A stretch of DNA of 64,000 nucleotides from Oscillibacter valericigenes (GTDB lineage Bacteria > Bacillota > Clostridia > Oscillospirales > Oscillospiraceae), in assembly GCF_021531315.1 (NCBI RefSeq), contig NZ_JAFBIQ010000001.1:186001-250000 (forward strand), written 5' to 3'. The number at the start of each line of letters is the position of its first letter. Within the stretch, counting starts at the first letter, position 1. Positions 21,630-63,986 of the stretch are shown here, in pieces. A program made the position numbers and the translations under genes. The notes under the pieces are model-generated. The model was not told the origin of the DNA. It searched no databases and saw only the letters and a list, made by a program, of their open reading frames with translations.

Positions 21630-24509
21630 TCAGATCTTGCCAAGCTCGTGGAGCAGCTTCTCCGGCGTCATCGGCCAGGAGCGCATCCACACGCCGCAGG
21701 CGTCGTGAATGGCGATGCCGATGGCAGGCGCCGCGCCGTTGCAGGCGATCTCGGAGATGGACTTTGCGCCGAAGGGGCCGAACTCGTCGTTGACATCGAT
21801 GAGCACTGCCTTGAAGTCCTCGGGCGCCTCGCCGATCATCGGCACACCGTAATCGGTGAGGTTCGCGTTGACGCATCTGCCGTTCTCGTCGAGCTTCATA
21901 TCCTCGTAGAGCGTGTGGCCGATGGACTTCATCGCCGCGCCGTACATCTGGCACAGGGCGATCTCAGGATTGATGGGCGTGCCGGCATCCTGCAGAGCGT
22001 AGAATTTCTGCACCTTGATCTCACCGGTTTTGACATTGACAGCGACCTGCGCGAAGTGCGCGCCGTAGGGCACGGAGGAGGCCGTGGTGACATAGCTGCC
22101 GTGCGCGACCATCTGGCCGCGGCCGTCGCCCGCGATCGCCGCGTGAGACAGCTCGCCGTAGCTGAGCGCCTTGCCGCTCGCCTTGGAGTAGACCTCACCG
22201 GGGGCGCGGACCTCAAGATCCTCGACCTTTTCATTCATTTGCAGCGCGGCCTCCGCCAAAATCTTCTCCTTGAGCTCTTTCGCCGCCAGCAGCGAGGCAT
22301 TGCCGCTGAAGAAGGTGCCGGAGGAGGCATATGCGCCGGTATCGAACACGCAGGAGTCGGTGTCGCCGGAGACGACCGTGATCTTCTCCATCGGGAGCTT
22401 GAGGACCTCCTTGACCGCCTTGGCGGAGATGGTGTCGAGACCCGTGCCGAGGTCGGCGCCGCCGCTGTTGAGGATGACCGTGCCGTCTGTTTCCAGCTTG
22501 GCGATGGCCTCGGCATGGTCGAGGCCGGGCAGACCGCTGCCCTGCATGATCATGGCGAAGCCCTTGCCGATCCTCCAGTCGGGATCGTCGGAGGTCTCCT
22601 TTTTGCCCCACTCGATCATCTCGCAGCCCTTGGCGATGGCCTCATCCAGTCCGCAGGAGCCGACGGGCACGACATTGCCCTCGCGCCCCTCACCGAGGCC
22701 CTTGAGAATTTCGAGCATATAGCCCTCGCTGACATGGTTCTTCTCGACCATCGTGCGGTAATCGACGCCGAGCTTGTCTGCCAGCTCAGCCATCGCCATC
22801 ATGATGCCGTAGGTACCCTTCGGCGTGCCGTAGCCCTGATACGCGCCCGCGGGCGGCGTGTTGGTGTAAAAGACCTTGAGGTCGTAGGCCATGTTGTCCA
22901 CGGCGAAGAGCGGCAGCGTCTTGGAGCAGCTGTTCATCGGAACGGTCAGGCAGTGGTTGCCGAACGGGCCGGTGTTGGCGCAGACCTCCATAAAGAGCGC
23001 GGTGATGGTGCCGTCCTTCTTGCCGCCCATCTTCACGCGCACACGCATGGGGTGACGGGTGGAGTTGGCGTAGAACTCCTCGGCGCGGGTGTTGCGGTAG
23101 TAGACCGGCTTTCCCGTGACCCACGCGGCGTAGCCGGTCAGGTCCTCGACGAGAATATCCTGCTTGCTGCCGTAGCCGCCGCCGACACGCTCCTTGACGA
23201 CATGAATTTTATTTTCGGGAATGCCGCACACCCAACTCACGATGCGGCGGACATGGTAGGGCACCTGCGTGGCGCAGTTGAGCACCAGACGCCCGCCCTC
23301 AATGTGCGCATAGCAGACATGGGGCTCGAGCGGCGTGTGCTGGATCTGACTGGTCTGATAGGTGCGGTCCACGATGGCGTCCGCCTCGGCAAAGCCCTTT
23401 TCCACATCGCCGATGCCGCCCTTGTTGGACGCCGCGATGTTTTTGTGAATGTCCGCGCCCAGCGGGAACTGGTAGACGACCTTGCCCTCGCGCTCGTCGC
23501 CCGCAAGCGCGTTGTACGCCGCGAGGTCGGCGGGCGCGCCCGCATTGTAGACGACCTCGCCGTTGTGGACGAGCGGCGCACCCTCCGCCATGGCCTCCTC
23601 GACCGTATAGACCGCGCCCTGCGGCTCGTACTCGACCTTGATGAGCGCGGCGGCACGGTCGGCGATCTCCGGTGTGCGGGCAATGATGCCTGCCACACGG
23701 TCGCCGACGTGGCGAACCTTCAGATTGAAGAGGCGGCGGTCATGCGGAGACGGCTCGGGGTTGCCCTGACCCGCCTGCATATAGTGCGTTTCGGGCGTGT
23801 TGTAGGCGGTGAGAACGGCGGCGACGCCGGGCAGCTTTTCTGCCTCACTCGCGTCGATAGACTTGATATACGCGCTGGCGAAGGGGCTGCGCAGAACATG
23901 CAGGCACCATGCGTTCTCAGGCACCTTATCCTCCACAAACACCGGCTCGCCGGAGACCAGCGCCGCGCCGTCGACCTTGCCGCAGGGCTTGCCGACGACT
24001 TCGAGGTTGGGGCGGAAGGACGGGGCGATCTCGCTGCGAAATTCGCCGAAATCGCGCAACTCGGTGGCGAGCTTGACCGCCAGATAGTAGTGCTCATAGC
24101 CCGCGTCGCGGACGAAGATGCTCGTGAGCACGTTTTTGATGTCTTTTCTGGTGGGATTGGGATTTTGCTCCAGCAGCCAGGTCAAAATGAGCGCGGCGGC
24201 GGGCGCGTTGTATGCGCTCTGCACGATGCCCGCAGCAACCATGGCCTTTTGCACATAATTCAGCTCGCGCCCGTTCAGCAAGCCCTCGGCGGTGCGGATG
24301 TCCGCGCCCTCGGCCTGATAGAACAGGATAAAATTCGCATACCTGAGCTTGCCGTTAAAGATGATGGTGTCGCTGCCGGCAAAGCCCTCGGCATCGTCGC
24401 TGTCGCGGACACTGCGATAGCCCGCGCGATAGAGCACCTCACGGAGCCTTGCGGTGGGTTCGGCGCAGAGGACGACCTCCTCGCCGTTGATTTTGCATTT
24501 CAATTCCAT
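21630..24509 (-). CDS. xdhD: XdhD-like molybdenum hydroxylase with a cysteine-less ferredoxin domain
   Basis: The 959-residue member of the xanthine dehydrogenase family closely resembles Escherichia coli XdhD, a probable hypoxanthine/xanthine oxidase. Residues 1-150 keep the fold of a 2Fe-2S small subunit, but all eight ligands are lost. VRDSDDAEGFAGSDTIIFNG replaces the first cluster motif, and VQSAYNAP and FVRDAGYEHYY replace the second. The rest is the molybdopterin domain, with VGGGYGSKQDI, AYQGYGTPKG (Gln where xanthine oxidases have the substrate Arg of FRGFG) and GAKSISEIACNG carrying the probable catalytic Glu. The ATG follows an AGGAG site and lies five bases after ygfM. It is the last gene of the operon. 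Electrons probably leave through partner Fe-S or FAD subunits. Confidence 0.88.
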   Translation of the reverse strand: MELKCKINGEEVVLCAEPTARLREVLYRAGYRSVRDSDDAEGFAGSDTIIFNGKLRYANFILFYQAEGADIRTAEGLLNGRELNYVQKAMVAAGIVQSAYNAPAAALILTWLLEQNPNPTRKDIKNVLTSIFVRDAGYEHYYLAVKLATELRDFGEFRSEIAPSFRPNLEVVGKPCGKVDGAALVSGEPVFVEDKVPENAWCLHVLRSPFASAYIKSIDASEAEKLPGVAAVLTAYNTPETHYMQAGQGNPEPSPHDRRLFNLKVRHVGDRVAGIIARTPEIADRAAALIKVEYEPQGAVYTVEEAMAEGAPLVHNGEVVYNAGAPADLAAYNALAGDEREGKVVYQFPLGADIHKNIAASNKGGIGDVEKGFAEADAIVDRTYQTSQIQHTPLEPHVCYAHIEGGRLVLNCATQVPYHVRRIVSWVCGIPENKIHVVKERVGGGYGSKQDILVEDLTGYAAWVTGKPVYYRNTRAEEFYANSTRHPMRVRVKMGGKKDGTITALFMEVCANTGPFGNHCLTVPMNSCSKTLPLFAVDNMAYDLKVFYTNTPPAGAYQGYGTPKGTYGIMMAMAELADKLGVDYRTMVEKNHVSEGYMLEILKGLGEGREGNVVPVGSCGLDEAIAKGCEMIEWGKKETSDDPDWRIGKGFAMIMQGSGLPGLDHAEAIAKLETDGTVILNSGGADLGTGLDTISAKAVKEVLKLPMEKITVVSGDTDSCVFDTGAYASSGTFFSGNASLLAAKELKEKILAEAALQMNEKVEDLEVRAPGEVYSKASGKALSYGELSHAAIAGDGRGQMVAHGSYVTTASSVPYGAHFAQVAVNVKTGEIKVQKFYALQDAGTPINPEIALCQMYGAAMKSIGHTLYEDMKLDENGRCVNANLTDYGVPMIGEAPEDFKAVLIDVNDEFGPFGAKSISEIACNGAAPAIGIAIHDACGVWMRSWPMTPEKLLHELGKI

Positions 24510-24514
24510 CGCTG

Positions 24515-25207
24515 TCACCTCCCGCTTGCAAAAACAATGCCTGCCAGATACTTCTTATAGGCCGCGCTGCCGGTCAGATCGTCAATGTAACCGGCCTTGT
24601 CGGCAATGTCCGGTGAGGCGCCGTAGACAAGGGCGCTGCCCTGCACGCTGAGCGCATAGACGCCCTCGCTCTCGGCGGCAATGAGCGCCGCGTGGCTGGC
24701 GCTGGTGTTGCCGAAGCGCTTGACGCTTCCCTTGCGGTCACGGTCGACCACAATGTATTCGATCAGGCGCAGGCAGTCGCTTTGCAGATACTCGCCGACG
24801 GGCTTTTCCCGCTCGCCGTGCGGCGTGACAGACTTTATCACCGCCTCCGCCGCGGTCAGCGCGGCGGCAAGATAGCTGTCGGAGCGGCGCAGACCAAGGT
24901 TGCCGCCGACCGTCGCGCTGTTGCGCCTCGCAAAGGAGGCGCAGAAGAGCGCCGCCTCGCGGATAAACGACGGGACCAGCTCGCTTTCGGCCACATCCTG
25001 CAAGGTACACAGCGCGCCGATATAGACCTTGCCGTCCTTTTCGGTGATGGTGTTGAAATCGAAGCCCGTGATGTCGATGAGGTCCTTGCCCTCGGCATCT
25101 CCGCCGAGGCGGAGGTCATCGGTACCGCCGGCAAGGTAGACCGCCGTGTCGGCGTGCTCCTTACGCAGGTTCACCGCCTCCTGCGGCGTTTTGGGATGGT
25201 AGATCAT
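24515..25207 (-). CDS. ygfM: YgfM-like FAD-binding subunit
   Basis: The 230-residue protein of the FAD-binding (CoxM/YgfM) family functions as the flavin subunit of molybdenum hydroxylases. Two FAD-contact glycine stretches are visible: VYLAGGTDDLRLGG (residues 23-36) and NSATVGGNLGL around residue 95. It ends SAAYKKYLAGIVFASGR, like Escherichia coli YgfM, which is encoded next to xdhD there as well. It is shorter than the other FAD subunit in this operon (291 residues), because much of the usual C-terminal domain is lacking. It sits 18 bases after that gene and five bases before xdhD. Pairing with XdhD is inferred from this conserved order. Confidence 0.82.
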   Translation of the reverse strand: MIYHPKTPQEAVNLRKEHADTAVYLAGGTDDLRLGGDAEGKDLIDITGFDFNTITEKDGKVYIGALCTLQDVAESELVPSFIREAALFCASFARRNSATVGGNLGLRRSDSYLAAALTAAEAVIKSVTPHGEREKPVGEYLQSDCLRLIEYIVVDRDRKGSVKRFGNTSASHAALIAAESEGVYALSVQGSALVYGASPDIADKAGYIDDLTGSAAYKKYLAGIVFASGR

Positions 25208-25225: not shown

Positions 25226-26101
25226 TTATTCCGAAATGTCCACGCGGCCGGGTGCATGGCCGGCTTCGAGCGCGTCGATGAAGAACGCCAACATCCTGCG
25301 CGTGGTGTTTCTGCGGTATTCGGGCATGGCGTGCGGGCTGATGACCGCATTCCATGCGTCAAGGAATTCCTCTTTACAGATATGAAGCTCGCTCGTTTTC
25401 TTGCCGATCAGCAATTCCTCCGCCTTGCGGGAGCGGGCGACCTTGGGGCCCGCCGCGCCGGAGGAGGCGCGGAAGTCGACGACCACACCGTCGCGGATCG
25501 TGGCGGCGGCGGAAAGCGTCAGCTTCGAGATGGCATTGGCGCGGCGCATACCGACCTTGCGGTAGAAAATGTGGGTGAAGTCCTGCTTGGGAATGATGAC
25601 CTTCGTAATGAGCTCGTCGTCGTGCAGGGCGGTCTTCTTGCTGGCGATGATGTAGTCGTCCACGAGCATACGGCGCTCTCCGTCCGCACTCGTGAGCACC
25701 ACCTCCGCATCCATGAGGATGAGTGGCTGGGGCATATCGCCCTTGGGGGATGCGTTGCCGATGTTGCCGCCGATGGTCGCGCTGTTGCGCAGCGCGATCG
25801 CACCCATGCGGGACGCCGCCTCGCGCAGCAGCTCGGGTACGAGGGGAGAGGCCGCGATCTCTGCCGAGGTCGTGCCCGCGCCGATCTCCACGCTGCCGTC
25901 CGGCAGCGTGCGGATGCCTTTGAGCTCCTTGAGCCCCGCAATGATCATCACATCGTTTCGGAAGGCGGGGGTGACGCCCGCGCCCATGCTGTTTGCGACC
26001 ATGAGGTCCGAGCCGCCTGCAAGGACGGTCGCGCCGGTCTCCTTGCGGATGCGCAGCGCCTCCTCGAGCGTTTCGGGAATGAAGCACTTTACCTGTTCCA
26101 T
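25226..26101 (-). CDS. Xanthine dehydrogenase-type FAD-binding subunit
   Basis: The 291-residue CoxM-like flavin subunit of a heterotrimeric molybdenum hydroxylase passes electrons from the 2Fe-2S clusters to the external acceptor. FAD motifs are TVLAGGSDLMV (residues 24-34) and NSATIGGNIGNASPKGDM around residue 110. The C-terminal CO dehydrogenase flavoprotein domain is complete (DDELITKVIIP, GMRRANAISKLTLSA). The ATG at 26101 lies inside the end of the 2Fe-2S gene, overlapping by 13 bases, so the two are translationally coupled. With the Mo and Fe-S genes upstream it completes a Mo/Fe-S/FAD set. Confidence 0.92.
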   Translation of the reverse strand: MEQVKCFIPETLEEALRIRKETGATVLAGGSDLMVANSMGAGVTPAFRNDVMIIAGLKELKGIRTLPDGSVEIGAGTTSAEIAASPLVPELLREAASRMGAIALRNSATIGGNIGNASPKGDMPQPLILMDAEVVLTSADGERRMLVDDYIIASKKTALHDDELITKVIIPKQDFTHIFYRKVGMRRANAISKLTLSAAATIRDGVVVDFRASSGAAGPKVARSRKAEELLIGKKTSELHICKEEFLDAWNAVISPHAMPEYRRNTTRRMLAFFIDALEAGHAPGRVDISE

Positions 26102-26571
26102 AAAGCCGCTCCTTTCTTCGCCGCAAGCTTGATGCACTCGACGATCAGGTCGTAGCCTGTGCAGCGGCAGATGTTGCCGCTGATGCCGACGCGGATCTCC
26201 TCCTCGGTGGGGTCGGGGTTCTTGCTCAGCAGCACATAGGTCGCCATGACCATGCCCGGGATGCAGAAGCCGCACTGCACCGCGCCGCCCTCGGCGTAAG
26301 CGTCGATGATGCACCTGCCCTTTTCCGTGTCGCGGATGCCCTCGATGGTCGTCAGCGCGCAGCCGTTGACCGCGCCGACAGGCAGGATGCAGCTTGTGAC
26401 CAGCTCGCTGTCCTTGATGATGGAGCAGGCACCGCACTCGCCCTCGCCGCAGCCCTCCTTGCTGCCGGTGAGACCGTAGTCCTCACGCAGCACATCGATG
26501 AGCCGCCGCAGCGGGTCGCCTCGGTAGAGCTTTTGCTCACCGTTCAATGTAAAACGAACCTCAGTGTACAT
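26089..26571 (-). CDS. 2Fe-2S subunit of xanthine dehydrogenase-type hydroxylase
   Basis: The 160-residue small subunit carries two 2Fe-2S clusters. The plant-type N-terminal cluster uses C41, C46, C49 and C61 (CGEGECGAC...C). The helical C-terminal cluster uses C100, C103, C135 and C137 (QCGFCIPGM and NICRCTGY). All eight ligands are present. The gene overlaps the Mo subunit by 11 bases and the FAD subunit by 13. It is the only free-standing Fe-S subunit in the island, so it may also serve the cysteine-less XdhD protein downstream. That sharing is inference. Confidence 0.95.
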   Translation of the reverse strand: MYTEVRFTLNGEQKLYRGDPLRRLIDVLREDYGLTGSKEGCGEGECGACSIIKDSELVTSCILPVGAVNGCALTTIEGIRDTEKGRCIIDAYAEGGAVQCGFCIPGMVMATYVLLSKNPDPTEEEIRVGISGNICRCTGYDLIVECIKLAAKKGAALWNR

Positions 26572-28729
26572 ATTTCATCGCCTCCTCAATATCCTCCGGC
26601 GGGATGGGAATGGAAGTAAAGCGCGTATTGAGCGCCCGCTCGACCGCGTCCACATAGGCCGCGGAGGCGCCGTTGAACACCAGCTCGCCCATGCCCTTGG
26701 CGCCGTAGGGCCCCCACGGATAAGGGTTTTCCTGAATGTGATAGAACTGCTTCGGGAAGTCCATCGAGGTCGGGATCACATAGTCGGACATGCTCTTCTG
26801 CTTGAAGTGTCCGTTCTTGACCTCTAACTTTTCCATCGCGCCGTAGCCGAGGGACTGGAGGATGCCGCCGTTGATCTGCCCGTGGACGATCAGCTCGTCG
26901 ATGGCCTTGCCGATCTCGTGCGACGACCAAATGCCGACGGTCTTGACCTCGTTCGTCAGGCGGTCCACCTCGACCTCGACGCAGGCAACGCCCCAGCCGT
27001 AGCCGAGGTAGGCGTCGCCGCGGAAGGTGTCCTGATCCCACGGATAGCCGTCTGGGTGCTCGTACTCGACCTCGGTGGTGAAGTCGCCCTCGTCCCATCG
27101 CGCCTTCATCTCCTGCGCGGCGCGCTCAACGAGGCGGCCGACGACCATGGTGGAGCGGGAGGCGGCGGTCGGGCCGGAGTCAACGACCTTGGAGGTGTCG
27201 GGATCGAGGTATTCGATCTGATCGATGCTCACGCCGAGCGTCGCGGCGCAGATCTTGCGCAGACTCGTCTTGAAGCCCTGGCCCATCTCGGTGGAGCCGA
27301 CCTGGATGCTGACCCTGTCGCCGGTCTTGACCAGCCGCGCGTGCGCCTTGATGATAGCCTGCTCGCCGTTGCCGGTGAATGCACCGCCGTGGTTGTACAT
27401 GGCGATGCCGATGCCCCTGCCGCAGCCGGGCTTATATTCCTTCGCCTTGCGCCAGTAGTCGGACTCGCGGGTGACGACCTCCAACATCTCGGGCAGCTTG
27501 ACCTCCTCGATGATGTGGCCGTTGGTCGTGGTCTCGTCGCCGCGCTTGGCGATGTACTGCATCTTGAACTCCAGCGGATCGACACCGAGGTGGCGCGCCA
27601 GATGGTCAAGGTGCGTTTCGATGGCGAAGATCGTCTGCGGCGCACCGAAGCCGCGGAACGCGCAGGACGGGAACATATTGGTGCCCATGCCCTCGCCCTT
27701 GAGATAGGTGTTGTCGAAGGTATAGACGCCGTTTCCGTGGAACACGCCGCGCTGCAAAACGACATAAGATGAGGAAAGGTACGCGCCGCAATTATAGTAG
27801 ATGTGGCCGTAGACGCCGGTGATCTTGCCGTCCTTCACAGCGGTCTTGTAGATGCACTTGGACGGGTGGCGCTTGACGGAGAACTGCGTGTCCTCCTCGC
27901 GGTCAAAGACCAGCTTGATGGGCTTGCGGAGCTTATTCTCCGCGACCAGCAGAGCGCCGCAGAGCACATCGGGGAAATGCTCCTTGCCGCCGAACGCGCC
28001 GCCGGTGGTACACTGGCGGACGATAATGTCCTCATAAGGAATACCCAGCAGGCCCGCGACGGACTTGCGGATGTAGAACGGGCACTGGGCGGAGGCGTAG
28101 AAAACGAACTTACCGTCCTCCATGTCCGCAATGGCGCTGTTGGTCTCTAAGTGGACGTGCTCCTGATAGGGCGTTTCGATGGTCTCCTCAAAGACCTCGT
28201 CCGCCTCGGCGAACACCTCGTCCATAGGTCTGCCCTTCTCGCAGAAGAGCTCACACATCACATTGCTGTTTTTCTCCGGGAACATGGGGCCGCCGACGCA
28301 TTGAATGGCGTCGTCTATGGTGACGGCGGGCGTCTGCTCCTCATAGTCGACCTTGATCTGCGCCTTGAGCCGCTTCAAAACGCCGCGGTCGGGACCGACC
28401 ACAAGACCGATCGTTTCGCCGACATAGAGCACATAGTCCTCGGCGAAGCAGCGCCAGTCCTTGGCGATCATCCACAGCTCGTTCTTGCCCTGCGCAGGAA
28501 TATCCTTCGCGGAGATGAAGTGGTACCCCGCCGGCAGCTCCGGCACATGGATCGCCTTGATCCTTCCGCGGGCGATGGTCGAGCGCACCATATAGGCGTA
28601 CTGCATATCGGGCAGCGTCATGTCGCAGACATACTTCGCCTCGCCTCTCGCCTTCTGCACTGCGTCCACACGGACGATGCGATCGTCGATCCCTGTCGGA
28701 CAGTTCGGCTTGCTGCATACTTCAGACAT
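26561..28729 (-). CDS. Xanthine dehydrogenase family molybdopterin-binding subunit
   Basis: The 722-residue catalytic subunit is the large Mo protein of a three-subunit hydroxylase, probably acting on xanthine or a related purine or N-heterocycle. Features are the aldehyde oxidase hammerhead domain near the N-terminus, the Mo-cofactor loop TTGGAFGGKEHF, the substrate Arg359 in FRGFGAPQ, and the probable catalytic base Glu682 in KGMGELVFNG. The start MSEVCSKPNC follows AGGAGG. The 26 open codons before it are leader. It is the first gene of the operon, reading on to Fe-S, FAD, ygfM and xdhD. The exact substrate is not settled by sequence. Confidence 0.92.
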   Translation of the reverse strand: MSEVCSKPNCPTGIDDRIVRVDAVQKARGEAKYVCDMTLPDMQYAYMVRSTIARGRIKAIHVPELPAGYHFISAKDIPAQGKNELWMIAKDWRCFAEDYVLYVGETIGLVVGPDRGVLKRLKAQIKVDYEEQTPAVTIDDAIQCVGGPMFPEKNSNVMCELFCEKGRPMDEVFAEADEVFEETIETPYQEHVHLETNSAIADMEDGKFVFYASAQCPFYIRKSVAGLLGIPYEDIIVRQCTTGGAFGGKEHFPDVLCGALLVAENKLRKPIKLVFDREEDTQFSVKRHPSKCIYKTAVKDGKITGVYGHIYYNCGAYLSSSYVVLQRGVFHGNGVYTFDNTYLKGEGMGTNMFPSCAFRGFGAPQTIFAIETHLDHLARHLGVDPLEFKMQYIAKRGDETTTNGHIIEEVKLPEMLEVVTRESDYWRKAKEYKPGCGRGIGIAMYNHGGAFTGNGEQAIIKAHARLVKTGDRVSIQVGSTEMGQGFKTSLRKICAATLGVSIDQIEYLDPDTSKVVDSGPTAASRSTMVVGRLVERAAQEMKARWDEGDFTTEVEYEHPDGYPWDQDTFRGDAYLGYGWGVACVEVEVDRLTNEVKTVGIWSSHEIGKAIDELIVHGQINGGILQSLGYGAMEKLEVKNGHFKQKSMSDYVIPTSMDFPKQFYHIQENPYPWGPYGAKGMGELVFNGASAAYVDAVERALNTRFTSIPIPPEDIEEAMKYVH

Positions 28730-28840: not shown

Positions 28841-28869
28841 ATTTTAACACCAAATCTCTCTCTTGTACA
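28841..28869 (-). promoter_or_regulatory. Candidate promoter of the Mo/Fe-S/FAD-ygfM-xdhD operon
   Basis: Minus strand -35 TGTACA (28864-28869), 17 bases, -10 TAAAAT (28841-28846). The -35 is weak (4 of 6), which fits a promoter that needs an activator. The conserved 25-bp element begins six bases upstream. Confidence 0.5.
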
Positions 28870-28875
28870 GAGACA

Positions 28876-28900
28876 GCGTGATACTACTTCAGAAATAGCG
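28876..28900. promoter_or_regulatory. Conserved 25-bp element, copy A
   Basis: GCGTGATACTA, eight bases, ATAGCG. An inner imperfect dyad CTAcTTcagAAaTAG occupies 28884-28898. It lies between the divergent promoters of the Mo-hydroxylase operon and mocA. An element with the same two blocks at identical spacing occurs at 33382-33406 before the second hydroxylase unit. It is probably a shared transcription factor site. Confidence 0.65.
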
Positions 28901-28913
28901 TGTGTATTTTCGC

Positions 28914-28943
28914 TTGCCTTGGGAAGACTCTTTGTGGTAAAGT
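28914..28943 (+). promoter_or_regulatory. Candidate promoter of mocA
   Basis: -35 TTGCCT (28914-28919), 18 bases, -10 TAAAGT (28938-28943), about 30 bases before the mocA start and 13 bases after the conserved element. Confidence 0.5.
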
Positions 28944-28974
28944 ATCCGCAAAAAGGAAAGTGAGATGATCTTTT

Positions 28975-29565
28975 ATGAAGCAGCAGCTCACCATCGGCTG
29001 CCTCATCATGGCCGCCGGCAATGCGAGCCGCTTCGGCTCCAACAAGCTCGCCGCCGAGGTAGACGGCAAAATGCTCATCGAGCACGCGCTTGAGGCCGTG
29101 CCGATCGAGGAATTTGCCCGCGTGAGCGTTGTCACGCAGTATGACGAGGTGGCGTCGCTTGTCAAGTGCTTTGGCTTTACAGTCCTTTTCAATGCGTTCC
29201 CCGAACGGGGCGCAAGCTATACCATCCGACTCGGCACCGAGGCGATGGCGGATTGCGGTGCCATCCTCTATCAGGTCGCCGACCAGCCGCTGCTGCGGCG
29301 CGAAAGCGTACGCGCCGAGGTCGGGTTTTTCCGTCGGCACCCCGACCGCATCGTTGCGATGGGGCACGGCAGCGTGCGCGGCAACCCCTGCATCTTTCCT
29401 GCCCGCTTCTTCCCCGAGCTGATGTCGCTCGAGGGCGATCACGGCGGCAGCGCCGTCATTCGCCGCCATGAGGACGCGCTGACGCTCTTCGAGGTCTCCC
29501 CCGACGAGCTGCGCGATGTCGATACGCCGATGGCGCTCGCCGCGCTGCGCGATACGCTCGCGTGA
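28975..29565 (+). CDS. mocA: MocA-like molybdenum cofactor cytidylyltransferase
   Basis: The 196-residue nucleotidyltransferase of the MobA/MocA family joins CMP to molybdopterin to make the cytosine dinucleotide cofactor used by xanthine dehydrogenase-family enzymes. The nucleotide-binding start is LIMAAGNASRFGSNKL. QVADQPLL holds the metal-binding Asp. GNPCIFPARFFPEL and LEGDHGGSAVI match the conserved MocA C-terminal part. It is divergent from the Mo-hydroxylase operon across a 245-base control region and convergent with the asparaginase gene. The location argues that it charges the cofactor for the enzymes on both sides. Confidence 0.88.
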   Translation: MKQQLTIGCLIMAAGNASRFGSNKLAAEVDGKMLIEHALEAVPIEEFARVSVVTQYDEVASLVKCFGFTVLFNAFPERGASYTIRLGTEAMADCGAILYQVADQPLLRRESVRAEVGFFRRHPDRIVAMGHGSVRGNPCIFPARFFPELMSLEGDHGGSAVIRRHEDALTLFEVSPDELRDVDTPMALAALRDTLA

Positions 29566-29566
29566 G

Positions 29567-30580
29567 TTAGGGCGCAGTCATCTCGCCGCAGAGGTCCTCC
29601 TCCATTTTCCGCTTGACGGTCTCCTTGTCATACCCACAGGAGAAGAGGTAGTAGAGCTTGGCGACGGCTGCCTCGGTCGTCATGTCGAGTCCGCTGACCG
29701 CACCAGCTCTTTTCAGCGCGTTCGAGGTCTCGTAGGTACCGAGCGCCACCGCGCCCTGCGGGCATTGAGAGCAGACGGTCAGCACCGTACCGTTGCAAAA
29801 CGCCTTTTCAATGATCGGCAGCAGTGCCCCGCCGTCGCCGGGGATATTGCCCGCGCCGAAGGTCTCGATGACGATGCCGCGCAGCTTCTCGGTCATGATC
29901 TGCTCAAAGAGCGAGAACTGGATGCCCGGAAAGACCTTCAGCACCCCGATGGGAACATTTTCCAATAATTGCAGTTGCAAAGCGCCTTTCGGCTTCGGCA
30001 GGAGGGCGCTTTCGTTGTAGCGGATGGTGATGCCCGCCTCGGCAAGGCTTGGGTAATTGGGCGAAATGAAAGCGATCAGCCCGTCGGCGGAGTATTTCGT
30101 CGCGCGGTTGCCGCGCAGGAGCTTGCCGCCGAAGTACAGACAAACCTCGTTCACCCGTCCCGCGCCCGCGATGAGCAGCGAGGTGATGATGTTGTCGCGC
30201 CCGTCGCTGCGCACCTCGCACAGCGGGATCTGCGAGCCGGTCAGCACGACTGGCTTTCCAAGGTTTCCGAGCATGAACGAGAGGGCGCTGGCGGTATAGG
30301 CCATCGTATCCGTGCCGTGAAGGATCACAAAGCCGTCGTAGCGGTCGTACTGCTCCGCCACCGCGCGGGCGATCTTGTTCCACTCGTGCACGGTCATGTT
30401 GGAGGAGTCGAGCAGCGGCTCCAGCTCCGTCAGCTCCCACACCGGAAGCTCCGACGCGCGCAGGTCGGAAATTTCATCGAGCGCGGCGCGGAAACGCCCG
30501 CTTTGCGGGGCGTAGCCGTTTTCCGTGCGCGTCATGCCGATGGTGCCGCCGGTATAGAGAATAAGGACCTTCTTTTTCAT
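29567..30580 (-). CDS. ansA: Type I L-asparaginase
   Basis: The 337-residue cytoplasmic asparaginase hydrolyses L-asparagine to aspartate and ammonia. The first catalytic threonine is in LYTGGTIGM at the N-terminus. The second is in HGTDTMAYTASAL near residue 90, with the family lysine segment VLTGSQIPL after it. It lies 15 bases after the fused xanthine dehydrogenase gene and has an AGGAGG site, so it is the second gene of that operon. Its stop codon is one base from that of the convergent mocA gene. Why an asparaginase accompanies a purine hydroxylase is not clear. A shared role in nitrogen scavenging is inference. Confidence 0.93.
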   Translation of the reverse strand: MKKKVLILYTGGTIGMTRTENGYAPQSGRFRAALDEISDLRASELPVWELTELEPLLDSSNMTVHEWNKIARAVAEQYDRYDGFVILHGTDTMAYTASALSFMLGNLGKPVVLTGSQIPLCEVRSDGRDNIITSLLIAGAGRVNEVCLYFGGKLLRGNRATKYSADGLIAFISPNYPSLAEAGITIRYNESALLPKPKGALQLQLLENVPIGVLKVFPGIQFSLFEQIMTEKLRGIVIETFGAGNIPGDGGALLPIIEKAFCNGTVLTVCSQCPQGAVALGTYETSNALKRAGAVSGLDMTTEAAVAKLYYLFSCGYDKETVKRKMEEDLCGEMTAP

Positions 30581-30595
30581 GCTGCATTCCTCCTG

Positions 30596-33283
30596 TTACC
30601 ACCAGTAGCGCGGCATCTTGGGCCGCTCGTAGGGCGTTTTCATCAGCGGAAGGCTCGTGCGCATCTCGCCGTCGAGCGCGAAGTACGCGCCCGCTACGGC
30701 GGGGGCGGTGGGAATGGTCGTGATCTCGCCGATGCCGATGGCGCCGAAGGCCATGTCCTGCCCCTCCTTCTCCACCAGAATACTATGGATAGGCGGCACC
30801 TGATCGGCGCGGAAGAGCCCAAGCGTACCGAATTTCGCGCTTGGGATGCAGTCGTAGAGCGGGTAGTGCTCTGTAAGCGTGAAGCCGAGTGCCATCGTGA
30901 CGCCGCCCTCGATCTGCCCCTCGCAGGAGAGTGGATTGATGGCCTTGCCGACATAGTGCGCCGCGTCGATCTCTCGGATCGTCCCGTCGTCGTTGAGGAC
31001 ACATACATGGGTGGCGTAGCCGTAGGCGACATGGCTGACGGGATTTTCCACCTCCTGCGTGCCGAGCGGGTCGGTCTTGGCGAGGTATTCGCCGTAGAAC
31101 TCCCGTCCCTCAAGCACCTTCCAATCGACGCTCGCGCCCGCGGGCAGTTCCGTGCCGACGCTGCCGCTGCCGTTGCTGCCGGGAAGCGTCTCCATGCCCT
31201 GTCGGTGCGCGATGCCGGAATAATCGGACACCCTCACATCGGCGCCCGCCGCCGCGAGCAGCTTCTGACACGCCCGCCGGCATGCTTCGCCGGTCACGAG
31301 CGTCTGGCGCGAGCCGGAGGTCGTGCCGGAATCCGGCGCGTTCACCGTGTTGGCAGCCTCGTAGACAACCTCCTCGCGCCCACAGTGCAGCATCGTGCAG
31401 ACGATCTGCGTGAGCACCGTGCCGAGACCCTGCCCGATGCAGGACGCGCCCGAGCGGATATGGAGCTTGCCGTCCTTCACCGCCACGATGCACCTGCCGG
31501 TATCGGGAATGCCCACGCCGACGCCCGCGTTCTTCATCGCGCAGGCGATGCCGACATTTTTGTTCTGCTCGCAGAGCTCCTTCACCGCCTCGAGCGTTTC
31601 GACAAGGCCCGTGGAGGGCGGCGCGATCTGTCCGTTCGGCAGCACCTGTCCGGGGCGGATGGCGTTGCGGTAGCGGATCTCCCACGGGGAGATGCCCAGC
31701 TCGTGCGCCATCTTTGTGAGCGTCATTTCCATGGCGTAGCAGGTCTGCGTCACGCCGAAGCCGCGGAACGCGCCCGCGGGCGGGTTGTTCGTATAGTACG
31801 CCTTGCCGGTAATTTCAAAGTTTTCGTAGTGATACGGCCCCGCGGCGTGCGTGCAGGCGCGCTCAAGCACCGGACCGCCGAGCGAGGCATACGCGCCTGT
31901 GTCGGCGACGACCTCCGCCTTGACGCCCTGAATGAGCCCGTCGCGGCTGCACCCCATCGTGATCGTCACCTTCATCGGGTGGCGCTTGGGGTGGACGAGC
32001 ATACTCTCCTTGCGGCTGAGCCTGACCTTGACGGGGCGGCCCGTAAGATAGGCGGCGAGCGCCGCGTGGTGCTGCACCGTCATATCCTCCTTGCCGCCGA
32101 AGCCGCCGCCGACGAGCAGGTTGGTCACATGGACCTTCTCCTGCGCAAGGCCCAGCATACGCGAGACCTCCCGCGCCGTGTCGTAGGTGCCCTGATCGGC
32201 GGAAAGGATGCTCACGCCGTCGCCGTCGGGATAGGCGACCGCGCACTCCGGCTCCAAAAAGGCGTGCTCGGTGTAGGGCGTTTCATAGTGATACATCAGC
32301 ACATAGTCCGCGTCGCGGATGGCCTGATCGGCGTTTCCGCGGCTGACGTGCTTTTCGCACAGCAGGTTCCCCGACTCATGCACGAGCGGCGCGAAGGGCT
32401 GCATGGCGTAGGTCGGGCTGAACACAGGCTTGAGCGGCTCGTAGTCGATCTCGACGAGGGCCTTCGCCTGCTCTAAAGTTTCACGGCTCTCCGCCGCCAC
32501 AAGGCAGATGGCGTCGCCGAGGTAGTGCGTGATCTTGCCGACGGGGATCATCGTGTCCCAGTCCTGCTGCAAATGGCCGACCTTGTTTTCGCCGGGAATA
32601 TCCTCGGCGGTGTAGACGCCGACCACGCCGGGCAGTGCCTCCGCCTTTTCCTTGCGGATCGCCAGCACCCGCGCGCGGGGATACTTGCTGCGCACGGCGC
32701 TCGCGTAGAGCATTCCGTCCAGATACACATCGTCTGGGTATTTGCCGCTCCCGCGCACCTTTTCCGCTGCGTCCACGCGCACGGCGCGCGCGCCGACGGC
32801 ATAGCTCTGCTCTTCCTCTTCGGGCAGAGCACCGCTGCGGAAAATTTCCGCAGCGAGCAAAATCGCGTCGATGATCTTCACATAGCCCGTACAGCGGCAG
32901 ATGTTGTTGCGGATGGCAAAGGCCGCCTCCTCTCGCGTCGGCGCGCTGTTCGTGTCCAGCAGTGCCTTGGCGGAGATCACCATGCCCGGGATACAAAAGC
33001 CGCACTGCACCGCACCCGCCTTGCCGAAGGCGTAGGTGTAGACCGCCTTCTCCCAATCGGAGAGGCCCTCCACCGTGAGAACGGTTTTGCCCTCCAGCTT
33101 ATCCGTCGAGGGTACGCAGGCCTTGGTCGCCTTGCCGTCGATGAGCACATGGCAGGTGCCGCAGGCACCCTCGCTGCATCCGTCTTTCACGCTGGTGAGG
33201 CGCAGCTCGTCTCGCAGAAAGCGGAGGAGCTTTTGATTTTTCTCCACGCTCATGCGCTGTCCGTTCACGGTAAAAGTTGCCAT
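30596..33283 (-). CDS. Fused 2Fe-2S/molybdopterin xanthine dehydrogenase, selenium-dependent type
   Basis: The 895-residue enzyme has the small 2Fe-2S subunit fused to the Mo subunit. Cluster ligands are C36, C41, C44 and C56 (CSEGACGTC...C), then C94, C97, C129 and C131 (QCGFCIPGM, NICRCTGY). The Mo part has VGGGFGGKEDMT, substrate Arg in AFRGFGVTQ, and catalytic Glu in GAIGIGEITT. This fused layout is that of the selenium-dependent xanthine dehydrogenase family of Clostridia. No selD or selenium-insertion gene is in the window, so selenium use is unproven. No FAD partner is in its operon. The start MATFTVNGQ follows GGAGAG. It is the first gene, with asparaginase second. Confidence 0.9.
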   Translation of the reverse strand: MATFTVNGQRMSVEKNQKLLRFLRDELRLTSVKDGCSEGACGTCHVLIDGKATKACVPSTDKLEGKTVLTVEGLSDWEKAVYTYAFGKAGAVQCGFCIPGMVISAKALLDTNSAPTREEAAFAIRNNICRCTGYVKIIDAILLAAEIFRSGALPEEEEQSYAVGARAVRVDAAEKVRGSGKYPDDVYLDGMLYASAVRSKYPRARVLAIRKEKAEALPGVVGVYTAEDIPGENKVGHLQQDWDTMIPVGKITHYLGDAICLVAAESRETLEQAKALVEIDYEPLKPVFSPTYAMQPFAPLVHESGNLLCEKHVSRGNADQAIRDADYVLMYHYETPYTEHAFLEPECAVAYPDGDGVSILSADQGTYDTAREVSRMLGLAQEKVHVTNLLVGGGFGGKEDMTVQHHAALAAYLTGRPVKVRLSRKESMLVHPKRHPMKVTITMGCSRDGLIQGVKAEVVADTGAYASLGGPVLERACTHAAGPYHYENFEITGKAYYTNNPPAGAFRGFGVTQTCYAMEMTLTKMAHELGISPWEIRYRNAIRPGQVLPNGQIAPPSTGLVETLEAVKELCEQNKNVGIACAMKNAGVGVGIPDTGRCIVAVKDGKLHIRSGASCIGQGLGTVLTQIVCTMLHCGREEVVYEAANTVNAPDSGTTSGSRQTLVTGEACRRACQKLLAAAGADVRVSDYSGIAHRQGMETLPGSNGSGSVGTELPAGASVDWKVLEGREFYGEYLAKTDPLGTQEVENPVSHVAYGYATHVCVLNDDGTIREIDAAHYVGKAINPLSCEGQIEGGVTMALGFTLTEHYPLYDCIPSAKFGTLGLFRADQVPPIHSILVEKEGQDMAFGAIGIGEITTIPTAPAVAGAYFALDGEMRTSLPLMKTPYERPKMPRYWW

Positions 33284-33338
33284 AGTGGGCTCTCCTTTCC
33301 AAACTTTTTGTTTGGGTTGCTTACTATTTTTCATTTTC

Positions 33339-33366
33339 ATTGTATCACATTCGTGCGAAATTGCAA
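33339..33366 (-). promoter_or_regulatory. Promoter of the fused xanthine dehydrogenase-asparaginase operon
   Basis: Minus strand -35 TTGCAA (33361-33366), 16 bases, extended -10 TGA-TACAAT (33339-33344 for the hexamer). The conserved 25-bp element starts 15 bases upstream. Confidence 0.7.
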
Positions 33367-33381
33367 GAAAAAGACGCGCGC

Positions 33382-33406
33382 GCGTGATACTATTTGTAAG
33401 ATAGCG
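33382..33406. promoter_or_regulatory. Conserved 25-bp element, copy B
   Basis: GCGTGATACTA, eight bases, ATAGCG, with the inner dyad CTATTTgtaAGATAG at 33390-33404. It has the same two blocks and spacing as the element at 28876-28900. It lies just upstream of the -35 of the fused xanthine dehydrogenase promoter, a typical activator position. Confidence 0.65.
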
Positions 33407-33415
33407 ATATAAACG

Positions 33416-33448
33416 AAAAAGAGGAACGGGCACGCCCGTTCCTCTTTT
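33416..33448 (-). terminator. Terminator of the membrane XRE regulator gene
   Basis: Stem AAAAGAGGAACGGGC / GCCCGTTCCTCTTTT with a two-base loop, a few bases after the stop codon. Confidence 0.9.
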
Positions 33449-33452
33449 CTTT

Positions 33453-34346
33453 TTACTTCACGCGCTCCTGCCGCCGGCTGCGCCATAGCGCGACGGTGAG
33501 GACAAGGAGCACGACGAGGGCAAGGTTATTGAGCGAATCGAGCGTACCGCTCAGCGCGAGCTTCCAAGTGTAGCCCGTCAGGTCGCCGTGTCCTGCATTC
33601 ACGATGTACCGCACCCAAAGTGCAAGCGCCTGACGGATGCCGAGCTGCGCAATCCAGCCGATGGTGAGCAGCGCAATGCTCCTTCGCTCCCAGCGGAGCG
33701 TCAGCGTGCGGTAGGAGCGCAGCGTGCAGGCGACCAGCGTGAGCAGCACCAGCGCGACCGACCAACTTATGGCAAGTCTCAGAGGATTCAACCGGAACAG
33801 ACGCGAAAATGTCAGAAAGATATTTCCTGCAACGACACCTGCGGCAAAGCGCATATACAGCGCAAAGCATACATACAGCGCCCACGCGCAGCAAAGCCCC
33901 GTGCGCCGCCTCACCGTCAGGCAGATGGTCCCACAGACAAACAGGGGCAGCGCCAAGAGAAAGCCCGCGAGCGTCCCGCCGAGGAGCGCAATGAGTACTC
34001 CGATCAGCGCGCCGAAGCACAGCAGGATAATGCCGGCGATTTGCCGCGTCTCCCGTCGTGCCGCGGGCGCGGCGGCGGTGTACGCCCCCGCTGCTTCTGT
34101 CGGGGCAGCAGTCTCCGCGCACGCCCTGTCCGCCGCGGCGCCTTGTGCGCTCTCCCCTTTTACCAGCTCGTCGAGCGTCACGCCGAACAGCTCCGCAAGA
34201 CGCAGGAGCTTGTCAAGCTCCGGGATGCTGGCGTCGGTCTCCCACTTGCTCACCGACTGGCGGCTGATGTCCAGCGCGTCGGCAAGGTCGCCCTGCGATA
34301 GATTTTTCTGTGTGCGCAGCCGCGCGATATTCTGTCCAAGCGTCAT
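33453..34346 (-). CDS. XRE-family regulator with a C-terminal membrane domain
   Basis: The 297-residue protein has an N-terminal helix-turn-helix of XRE type (residues 5-60; NIARLRTQKNLSQGDLADAL and SRQSVSKWETD). An alanine-rich linker follows, then about six hydrophobic segments from residue 100 on. Such fusions are common in Firmicutes and are thought to sense the envelope or be membrane-tethered. No ligand motif is seen. It is a single-gene unit with its own promoter and terminator. It lies next to the molybdenum island, but nothing in the sequence ties it to the conserved element there. Confidence 0.85.
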   Translation of the reverse strand: MTLGQNIARLRTQKNLSQGDLADALDISRQSVSKWETDASIPELDKLLRLAELFGVTLDELVKGESAQGAAADRACAETAAPTEAAGAYTAAAPAARRETRQIAGIILLCFGALIGVLIALLGGTLAGFLLALPLFVCGTICLTVRRRTGLCCAWALYVCFALYMRFAAGVVAGNIFLTFSRLFRLNPLRLAISWSVALVLLTLVACTLRSYRTLTLRWERRSIALLTIGWIAQLGIRQALALWVRYIVNAGHGDLTGYTWKLALSGTLDSLNNLALVVLLVLTVALWRSRRQERVK

Positions 34347-62084: not shown

Positions 62085-63986
62085 TTACTCGCCCGCCTCG
62101 GCAGCAAGCTGCTCCCAGCGCTCCATCAGCGCGGTGAGCGCCTGCTCCTGCGCCTCTTTTTCGGCGTAGAGCGCGCTGTACTTCTCATAGTCTGACGCAG
62201 CCTCCTCCAGCCGCGCGTCCAACGCGGCGAGCGCCTCCTCCTGCTGCGCGATCTCGCGCTCGCAGATGGTGAGCTGGCGGCGAGCCGCCTGCTGCCCCTT
62301 ATTGCCGCGCTGCGGTTTCTCTGTGTTGTGCTTTTCCTTTACACGGCTTTCTGTCTCTGCTTTTTTCGGCGGTTGTTCCGCTTTTAGCCTGCGGTAGCGG
62401 GCAAAGCCCATCGGGTAGTCGGTGATGATACAGTCCTCCAACTCCCACACGCGGGTAGCGAAGCGGTTGATGAAGTAGCGGTCATGGCTGACGAACAAAA
62501 GCGTACCGTCGTAGGCCTCCACCGCCTCCTCGATCCACTCGCGCGAGGCGATGTCGAGGTGGTTGGTCGGCTCGTCAAGAATAAGGAAATTGACCTCGTC
62601 GTCCATCAGCATACAAAGCCGCAGGCGGCTCTGCTCGCCGCCGGAGAGCACGGAGACGGACTTGAAAACATCCTCGCCGCGGAAGTGGAAGGCCGCCAGA
62701 CGGTCGCGCGCCTTCTGCGGCGTGATGTCTCGCTTGGACCAGAGCATCGTGTCCACGAGGTTTCGCTGCGGCACATCGAAGTGAATGATCTGCGGCAGAT
62801 ACGCGGTCTTGACCGCAGGGCCGAGCTTGACGCGCCCTTCGTCGGGATACTCCTCTCCCATGATCATTTTGATGAGCGTGGACTTGCCCGTGCCGTTGTC
62901 GCCGATGAGCGCGATGCGCTCGCCGCCGGTGACCTTGAGGCTCACATCGGAGAAAAGCGTCCGCGCGCCGAAGGACTTGCCGACACCCTTGAGCGTGAGC
63001 ACCTCGTCGCCGAAGAACTCTCCGCTGCGGAACTGCGCGGTCAGCCTGCGCTCGCGCGTGGGCTTGTCCGTCGTGCGCATCCGCTCGATGCGCTTTTCCA
63101 TCGAGAACGCGCGCTTGTGCAGCGCGTCGTTGCCCATGAAAGCCCATAGGTGCAGCTTGTCCGCCGCTGCCTCGAGCTGCTTTATCTTCGCCTGCTCTTT
63201 TTCATATTGCCGCATTTTTTCGAGGTAGCGACGCTCCTTCTCCACGGCATAAAAGCTGTAATTGCCGTTGTAGAGTTCCGCGTGTCCGTCGAGAATTTCG
63301 ATGACGCGGGTGATGGTGCGGTCAAGGAAATAGCGGTCGTGCGAGATGGCGACGACCGTACCCTTGAAGGAGGCGAGGTAATCCTCCAGCCATTCGATGG
63401 CGTGGAGGTCGAGGTGGTTGGTCGGCTCGTCGAGGAGCAGAATATCCGTATCCTCCAAAATGAGGCGGCCGAGGTTCACGCGCGTCTTTTCGCCGCCCGA
63501 GAGCGTGTCAAATAACCGCGTGCGCATATCGGCGGGGATCGAAAGGCCGTTTGCCACCTTGTTGACGGCGGTGGCGGTGTCGTAGCCTCCGAGGCCCTCA
63601 AAGCGGGCGGAGAGCTCGCCGTAGCGGCGCAGCGTTTCCTCCGATTCGTCGCCGCCTGCCATCTGCGCGGAGAGCTTTTCCATCTCGTCCGCCATGTTCC
63701 GCATCCGTGCGAAGGCGGATTGCAGCACATCCTCGACTGTGAAGCCCGCGGGGTAGACCGGTATCTGCGAAATGAGCCCCACGCGGCGGCCTGACGCGAT
63801 GGCGACCTCACCGATGTCGTAGTCGAGCTCATCGGTCAGGATGCGAAAGAGCGTCGTTTTGCCCGCGCCGTTCTTGCCGAGCAGGCCCACGCGCTCGCCG
63901 GAGTTGACCTGAAAGGTCAAGCCGTCGAGTATTTTCTTTTCCAGATCAAAGGACTTCTGAAGCCCCGTTACACTGATCTCGATCAT
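62085..63986 (-). CDS. ABC-F family ATPase
   Basis: The 633-residue protein has two tandem ATP-binding cassettes and no membrane part. It belongs to the ABC-F family of ribosome-associated translation factors. The first cassette has LLGKNGAGKTTLFRIL, LSGGEKTRVNLGRLIL and ILLLDEPTNHLDL. The interdomain linker (about residues 235-310) is charged and helical. The second cassette has IGDNGTGKSTLIKMI, LSGGEQSRLRLCMLM and ILDEPTNHLDIASRE. A C-terminal coiled coil follows (residues 560-630). It resembles the Uup/YdiF type more than antibiotic-resistance members. Only 14 bases precede the ATG in the window, with no ribosome site and no stop, so a start further upstream cannot be excluded. Confidence 0.92.
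   Translation of the reverse strand: MIEISVTGLQKSFDLEKKILDGLTFQVNSGERVGLLGKNGAGKTTLFRILTDELDYDIGEVAIASGRRVGLISQIPVYPAGFTVEDVLQSAFARMRNMADEMEKLSAQMAGGDESEETLRRYGELSARFEGLGGYDTATAVNKVANGLSIPADMRTRLFDTLSGGEKTRVNLGRLILEDTDILLLDEPTNHLDLHAIEWLEDYLASFKGTVVAISHDRYFLDRTITRVIEILDGHAELYNGNYSFYAVEKERRYLEKMRQYEKEQAKIKQLEAAADKLHLWAFMGNDALHKRAFSMEKRIERMRTTDKPTRERRLTAQFRSGEFFGDEVLTLKGVGKSFGARTLFSDVSLKVTGGERIALIGDNGTGKSTLIKMIMGEEYPDEGRVKLGPAVKTAYLPQIIHFDVPQRNLVDTMLWSKRDITPQKARDRLAAFHFRGEDVFKSVSVLSGGEQSRLRLCMLMDDEVNFLILDEPTNHLDIASREWIEEAVEAYDGTLLFVSHDRYFINRFATRVWELEDCIITDYPMGFARYRRLKAEQPPKKAETESRVKEKHNTEKPQRGNKGQQAARRQLTICEREIAQQEEALAALDARLEEAASDYEKYSALYAEKEAQEQALTALMERWEQLAAEAGE

Follow-up and report, generated by a model that had tools for sequence, protein, structure and literature searches.

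A predicted ModE-type operator before the molybdenum hydroxylase operons of Oscillibacter valericigenes and its candidate single-domain regulator

Two molybdenum hydroxylase operons in a 64,000-nucleotide stretch of Oscillibacter valericigenes DNA (contig NZ_JAFBIQ010000001.1, positions 186,001 to 250,000; this whole stretch is called the window) are preceded by the same 25-bp element, GCGTGATACTA-N8-ATAGCG. A pattern search of the window finds it at 28876-28900 and 33382-33406 with equal spacing, as a first-pass annotation of this DNA had described. Sequence comparison makes it very probable that the element serves a ModE-type regulator as its operator, with a single-domain ModE-like protein most likely docking there as a dimer, and that it belongs to a dual regulon of molybdenum and selenium genes. 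The system would work like ModE on a ModE-type operator, but its regulator is without the molybdate-binding domains, which are among the features that define canonical ModE.

A conserved palindrome with the span of the ModE operator

The two copies share all 17 fixed bases and agree at 20 of 25 positions overall. Allowing up to 3 mismatches to the 25-mer, the window holds 3 matches where 0.10 would be expected by chance, the third of them, at 62174, carrying 3 mismatches and later reaching a matrix score of just 9.0. Throughout the genome (G000; 2.48 Mb in 122 contigs, 98.9% complete) exact copies are confined to these two places, and the 4 further matches have 3 mismatches each. The copies had also been called non-coding, which holds if the neighbouring genes start at ATG 33283, ATG 28729, and ATG 28975, but mechanical open reading frames with earlier GTG or TTG starts, or antisense frames, do overlap both. 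As a pattern for the whole family the 25-mer was discarded, since 30 of 300 genomes match it when 2 mismatches are allowed, and many match the reversed control as well. Exact copies among these 300 genomes are found only in G000 and G154, and G290 has a flipped copy with 2 mismatches.

Xanthine dehydrogenase promoters and mocA regions from genomes of the genus were compared to define the block. The unit conserved in orthologous promoters is a palindrome of 24 bp, CGTKATWY-N8-RWATMACG, bounded by CG on either side; it lies at the same place across the genus promoters and in the opposite orientation in G290. In a test set of 11 xanthine dehydrogenase promoters and the window mocA site, with the 24-mers chosen by eye, the best dyad axis is 12.5, with 79 of 144 pairs, followed by an axis with 46 of 120. 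The first-pass annotation had proposed an inner dyad, CTAyTTnnnArATAG, whose centre falls at base 15 of the 24-bp core; relatives share axis 12.5 instead, and axis 15.0 collects 33 of 108 pairs over the same 12 sites. The window copies are imperfect palindromes, with 4 and 6 of 12 pairs:

28877..28900, no strand assigned: predicted ModE-type operator 1, 24 bp, CGTGATAC-N8-AAATAGCG, matrix score 19.3, between the divergent promoters of the hydroxylase cluster and mocA

33383..33406, no strand assigned: predicted ModE-type operator 2, 24 bp, CGTGATAC-N8-AGATAGCG, matrix score 20.6, upstream of the xanthine dehydrogenase-ansA -35

The span and axis of this unit equal those of the Escherichia coli ModE operator, for which the published consensus is a 24-bp inverted repeat, CGNTATATA-N6-TATATANCG (PMC545781, PMC2700814). 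Each window copy fits 11 of the 16 fixed bases of the E. coli consensus, a value that four other, unrelated window positions reach too; direct matching is thus a weak argument, and the case rests on a matrix built from orthologues. The moaA and xdhC sites of the same genome, described below, fit only 8 of 16.

The matrix was trained on 34 sites from other genomes of the genus, with G000, G154, and G290 excluded. After the two operators, the next best score in the 64 kb is 10.4, and the sites aligned with operator 1 score 12.1 in G154 and 14.5 in G290. Within 3 kb at E. coli modA there is a single match of at least 4, CGTTATATTGTCGCCTACATAACG, just before the gene; it scores 15.7, which 0 of 60 shuffles reach, and agrees with 14 of the 16 bases of the published ModE consensus; we take it to be the ModE operator. 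Within 2 kb at E. coli moaA the single match scores 9.2, which 2 of 60 shuffles reach. The element had not been recognised as a known ModE site; that it differs from one finds no support, given its 24-bp ModE span and the recovery of the E. coli modA operator by a matrix built without E. coli data.

Sites at molybdenum and selenium genes in the genome and in relatives

In the genome and in relatives there are further, degenerate copies at molybdenum and selenium genes. Those of O. valericigenes itself precede modA (21.1), yedE (19.5), moaA (16.9), and, more weakly, xdhC-yqeC (12.8), with 35, 28, 10, and 2 bp between the end of the site and the start codon, respectively; a regulon limited to the two places in the window is not supported. 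A relaxed pattern at 3 mismatches proved useless alone in this genome (92 matches vs 153 for the reversed control); 48 of its 90 matches outside the window were scored by the matrix, and one of these, with 18.5, reaches at least 16.9. In relatives the relaxed pattern stands before modA, before yedE, and between modE and yqeC. It also precedes a second kind of ModE-domain gene, as well as the leading gene, mocA, of another xanthine dehydrogenase cluster.

With up to 1 mismatch, the 18 genus genomes hold 38 sites, compared with 13 for the reversed control, and reading of the flanks places 31 of the 38 at genes of molybdenum or selenium metabolism; once the 9 promoters from which the pattern was derived are set aside, the figure is 22 of 29. 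A close xanthine dehydrogenase (at least 66% identity) is present in 13 genus genomes, and its promoter carries a site of at least 18.2 in 11, O. valericigenes included, and of 17.0 in the metagenome-assembled genome L224; the closest named relative found, Oscillibacter sp. MSJ-31, has a xanthine dehydrogenase that is 93% identical. A modA site of at least 18.9 is found at 9 of the 12 genus loci above the family cut-off (5 of the 9 being training sites), and a yedE site of at least 19.5 in 9 of 10 genus genomes (6 being training sites); the modA of G306 lacks a site, but its contig ends too early. In six relatives modE and yqeC are transcribed away from each other and a site lies in the gap, with up to 2 mismatches in 5 of them and 3 in G307. 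At loci L072 and L077 the genes after yqeC are yqeB, selD, yedE, and xanthine dehydrogenase (L072 by family search, selD by eye).

In the set of 300 family genomes, the pattern without mismatch gives 15 sites in 13 genomes, compared with 6 sites for the reversed control. Seven of the 15 precede modA (twice), xanthine dehydrogenase, mocA/xanthine dehydrogenase, xdhC-like, TIGR01977 (cysteine-desulfurase/selenocysteine-lyase-like), and ModE-domain genes, all named by eye except the TIGR01977 gene. A ModE-type match is present in 10 of the 13 exact-site genomes, an association with a hypergeometric P of 0.003 against 111 of 300 genomes at E <=1e-6, a threshold chosen afterwards.

Promoter geometry and proposed mechanism

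The first-pass annotation had placed copy 1 between divergent promoters and copy 2 upstream of a -35, and promoter prediction agrees. The promoters and genes around the operators are these:

33339..33366, minus strand: predicted sigma-70 promoter of the xanthine dehydrogenase operon, -35 TTGCAA at 33366-33361 and -10 TACAAT at 33344-33339, from consensus and conservation

28841..28869, minus strand: predicted promoter of the molybdenum-hydroxylase cluster, -35 TGTACA and -10 TAAAAT, from consensus match

28914..28943, plus strand: predicted mocA promoter, -35 TTGCCT and -10 TAAAGT with spacing 18, from consensus match

30596..33283, minus strand: selenium-dependent xanthine dehydrogenase, fused iron-sulfur and molybdenum subunit (TIGR03311, 1264.5 bits, cut-off 830.45)

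29567..30580, minus strand: ansA, encoding a type I asparaginase, the following gene in the same orientation (NF006998, 395.4 bits, cut-off 376)

28975..29565, plus strand: mocA/ygfJ-like molybdenum cofactor cytidylyltransferase (TIGR03310, 124.2 bits, under its 186.45 cut-off)

26561..28729, minus strand: molybdenum-binding subunit of a xanthine-dehydrogenase-type hydroxylase, gene 1 of the cluster (best match TIGR03196, 362.3 bits, below cut-off)

26089..26571, minus strand: iron-sulfur subunit (NF041020, 158.8 bits, below cut-off)

25226..26107, minus strand: flavin adenine dinucleotide (FAD) subunit, XdhB-like, start codon provisional (NF043083, 144.5 bits, below cut-off)

24515..25207, minus strand: ygfM-like FAD-binding subunit (TIGR03312, 87.9 bits, below cut-off)

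21630..24518, minus strand: xdhD-like molybdenum/iron-sulfur subunit, Se_sel_red_Mo (TIGR03313, 1198.9 bits, cut-off 1101.9)

Elsewhere in the genome, yqeC, like the TIGR03311 xanthine dehydrogenase, is over its cut-off, as is selD at L189 (contig C111), and yqeB was named by family search in relative L072. The order of ansA after the selenium-dependent xanthine dehydrogenase recurs in G154, G290, G209, and G311, for no obvious reason. Adjoining operator 2, a terminator-like inverted repeat (by eye) at 33414-33447 comes after a helix-turn-helix gene at 33453-34346 on the minus strand. A riboswitch reading of the elements was rejected, since they lie upstream of the predicted promoters and Rfam gives only a ribosomal protein L10 leader in the window (RF00557, 36855-36988, minus strand).

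At the xanthine dehydrogenase promoters the site centre lies 50-52 bp before the -10 in 11 genus genomes (50 bp in O. valericigenes) and 52 bp before it in L224; the distance is 49 bp at the window mocA and 42 bp at the second hydroxylase cluster, where it is the same in G290. The xanthine dehydrogenase site has its centre ahead of the -35, at roughly -62 to -64, which is the usual seat of activators that contact RNA polymerase. At modA of O. valericigenes the site overlaps the best predicted -10, a rather weak one, and at its yedE, moaA, and xdhC the site centre is 20-28 bp past the start of the -10. If position is a guide to function, then activation is most likely where the site lies upstream of the -35 and repression where it lies over or after the -10.

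Sites, conservation, spacing, neighbours, and the ModE-like gene are read from the DNA, and from these we infer binding, dimerization, the sign of regulation, and the signal. A dimer of a 122-amino-acid single-domain ModE-like protein would bind the 24-bp palindrome, activating the two hydroxylase operons and mocA from upstream of their -35 and repressing modA, yedE, and xdhC-yqeC from sites over or just after the -10. Such a regulon would couple molybdate uptake, molybdenum cofactor synthesis, and selenium supply to the selenium-dependent molybdenum hydroxylases, and its pattern of sites agrees with the annotation of E. coli ModE as a dual regulator. The proposal that one regulator joins three transcripts of the window thus stands as far as the shared operator and its conservation in relatives go; that a single protein binds all of the sites is our reading of them.

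A single-domain ModE-like protein as candidate regulator

The candidate is a 122-amino-acid ModE-like protein of one domain, encoded at G000:C100:79966-80334 on the minus strand (L109). It matches TIGR00637 with an E of 1.4e-14, is 33% identical to E. coli ModE over 79 amino acids, and by Pfam contains HTH_1 only, with no Mop domains. A search of the PDB with the family profile returned three sequences, 2ijl, 1b9m, and 1o7l, all of them ModE or molybdenum-binding repressors, and the ModE-type domain (TIGR00637, E <= 1e-3) is present in 15 of the 18 genus genomes. Since the C-terminal tandem Mop domains are absent, we stop short of classing it as canonical ModE.

The modE gene of O. valericigenes has a palindrome of its own, a 23-bp CGTTATC-N9-GATAACG over its -10 (upstream of L109:9335), with a shorter spacer, and autoregulation through it is possible. 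The modE promoter of G154 likewise bears this form over its -10, with the arms conserved; the modE promoters of G290, G209, and G311 lack this 23-bp palindrome. A second, weak ModE match in the genome (G000:C67, E 2.2e-4) lies in a 340-amino-acid frame, and a matrix scan of that locus gave no operator of at least 10. In G307 a MocA/DVU_1551-like nucleotidyltransferase (PF12804) is fused to a ModE DNA-binding domain (L118:277-1296, in G307:C74, likely start 373), with an operator just upstream, and the gene precedes a second xanthine dehydrogenase cluster. ModE-domain matches also fall in frames of 312-383 amino acids at G253:C19, G300:C116, G302:C113, G308:C44, and G310:C4; the fusion itself was checked, by family search, only in L118. 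Proteins with tandem Mop domains are encoded in three genus genomes (G300:C116:2428-2838, G300:C184, G304:C454, and G308:C9), and the one on G300:C116 is close to an operator and a ModE-domain gene.

Weighing the ModE-type interpretation

Several observations weigh against a ModE-type operator and regulator. The 34 training sites were picked by pattern and by eye, and 8 of them belong to the 11 xanthine dehydrogenase sites of the genus; a match of 18.5 in O. valericigenes precedes an rsmD-like gene; and for 7 of the 38 genus sites and 8 of the 15 in the family no gene at the site was recognised as a molybdenum or selenium gene. The modA genes of G209 and G301 and the yedE of G209 have no site, nor is there one between modE and yqeC in G300 or at the xanthine dehydrogenase of G311, although modE is present there, and at four of seven named loci (L225, L226, L227, and L229) nothing in the promoter scores 9 or more. 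G305, where modE was not detected, has a xanthine dehydrogenase site of only 11.8 and yet a yedE site. The moaA site is 10 bp before the start in O. valericigenes and 99 bp before it in G154. The protein is itself below the TIGR00637 cut-off (53.9 bits, cut-off 98.5), and 0 of 18 genus genomes pass it; a domain search found no Mop domain in the O. valericigenes genome (they are present in 3 of 18 genus genomes). The association of sites with ModE weakens to a P of 0.025 against the 140 of 300 genomes found at the standard threshold of E 1e-3, and 3 of the 13 exact-site genomes have no detected modE. Sites in genomes without modE may reflect persistence after loss of the regulator, as described for Geobacter metallireducens (PMC2700814). 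Neither many copies at unrelated genes nor a lack of conservation was found outright, though some relatives are without the block.

If the site is of the ModE type, the regulator need not activate: it could repress everywhere, or silence or loop from upstream, which we regard as unlikely but as the alternative with the most in its favour, since repression of mod operons is what ModE is chiefly known for. In 12 promoters, however, the site lies upstream of the -35 with its centre 50-52 bp from the -10, which is hard to square with repression, and E. coli ModE, a repressor of modABCD, activates moaABCDE (PMC2408646, PMC11980592).

A different binder altogether is improbable. A selenium-associated LysR regulator (LysR_Sec_metab) is encoded between selD and yedE in O. 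valericigenes (L189:4131-5039, in C111; NF040786, 251.9 bits, just over the cut-off of 250), the selenium genes bear the site, and a centre near -63 fits LysR-type activators; the literature also proposes a selenium-linked subfamily of LysR regulators (PMC5322559). LysR boxes are T-N11-A with an odd axis, whereas the palindrome axis is even (12.5, between bases). Sites are present before modA and moaA as well, the matrix that scores them picks the E. coli modA operator, and in O. valericigenes none of the xanthine dehydrogenase, modA, or xdhC sites has the LysR gene next to it. We give slightly less credence still to an IclR-family regulator, suggested by a gene divergent from moaA (L191:1176-1934, in C78; IclR-group families, below cut-offs) and by frames of similar kind, recognised by eye, in G154, in G209, and, in G307, beside modA. 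Reading of the loci, with no search of the distribution, noticed no IclR gene beside the xanthine dehydrogenase, yedE, or xdhC sites, and this binder would leave the E. coli modA match unexplained. Least credible of all is chance, or a purine-specific operator of the PurR or PucR type limited to two operons; xanthine dehydrogenase does act on purines and there are just two exact copies, but conservation, fixed spacing, and the sites at modA, moaA, and yedE count against both, and the PurR and PucR motifs also appear to differ from this one.

Comparison with known systems and implications

The predicted system resembles that of E. coli in its 24-bp palindrome with CG ends and AT-rich arms, its probably homologous DNA-binding domain, and its sites at modA and moaA in repressor-like and activator-like positions. 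It differs in a regulator without Mop (TOBE) domains, in arms of CGTKATWY rather than CGNTATATA, and in sites that also precede selenium genes and xanthine dehydrogenases. A DNA-binding domain without molybdate-binding domains, with mod operons as targets, is shared with the single-domain ModE of Desulfovibrio, whose predicted site, CGGTCACG-N14-CGTGACCG, is quite unlike the E. coli motif (PMC545781); in Oscillibacter, by contrast, the single-domain ModE would be paired with an E. coli-like operator. The gene set of selenium-dependent molybdenum hydroxylases, for which no ModE control is described in the available portion of Haft and Self 2008 (PMC2276186), is represented in Oscillibacter by yqeC, ygfJ-type mocA, selD, and the hydroxylases, with yqeB in relatives; a predicted ModE-type operator is common to several of them. 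Clostridioides difficile likewise has clostridial selenium-dependent purine breakdown with yqeB and yqeC, whereas the control cited for it is of another kind, with DioR as a predicted regulator and a sigma-54 promoter ahead of yqeB (PMC11448449). We found no literature report of ModE control of selenium genes, a weak negative because the word "mode" swamps searches and subscription papers are thinly covered.

A ModE-like regulator of Campylobacter jejuni without a metal-binding domain is said to control molybdate and tungstate transporters (reportedly Taveirne 2009), and to our knowledge no selenium-dependent hydroxylase regulon is known in that organism.

If a one-domain ModE without any Mop protein in the genome does run a joint molybdenum-selenium regulon in Oscillospiraceae, it would sense something other than free molybdate bound by Mop domains, perhaps the state of the molybdenum cofactor, as the G307 fusion of a ModE domain to a MocA-like nucleotidyltransferase and the ModE-domain matches in long frames of five more relatives hint; we put this forward tentatively, as a possibility that may well prove wrong. 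How a ModE without a molybdate-binding domain senses its signal is the question that these genomes raise. The predicted regulon would bring genes of selenium supply under molybdenum control (yedE, joined in relatives by yedF and a selenocysteine-lyase-like gene), and it offers a candidate regulator and a predicted site for the selenium-dependent molybdenum hydroxylases, the enzymes with which some gut Firmicutes break down purines.

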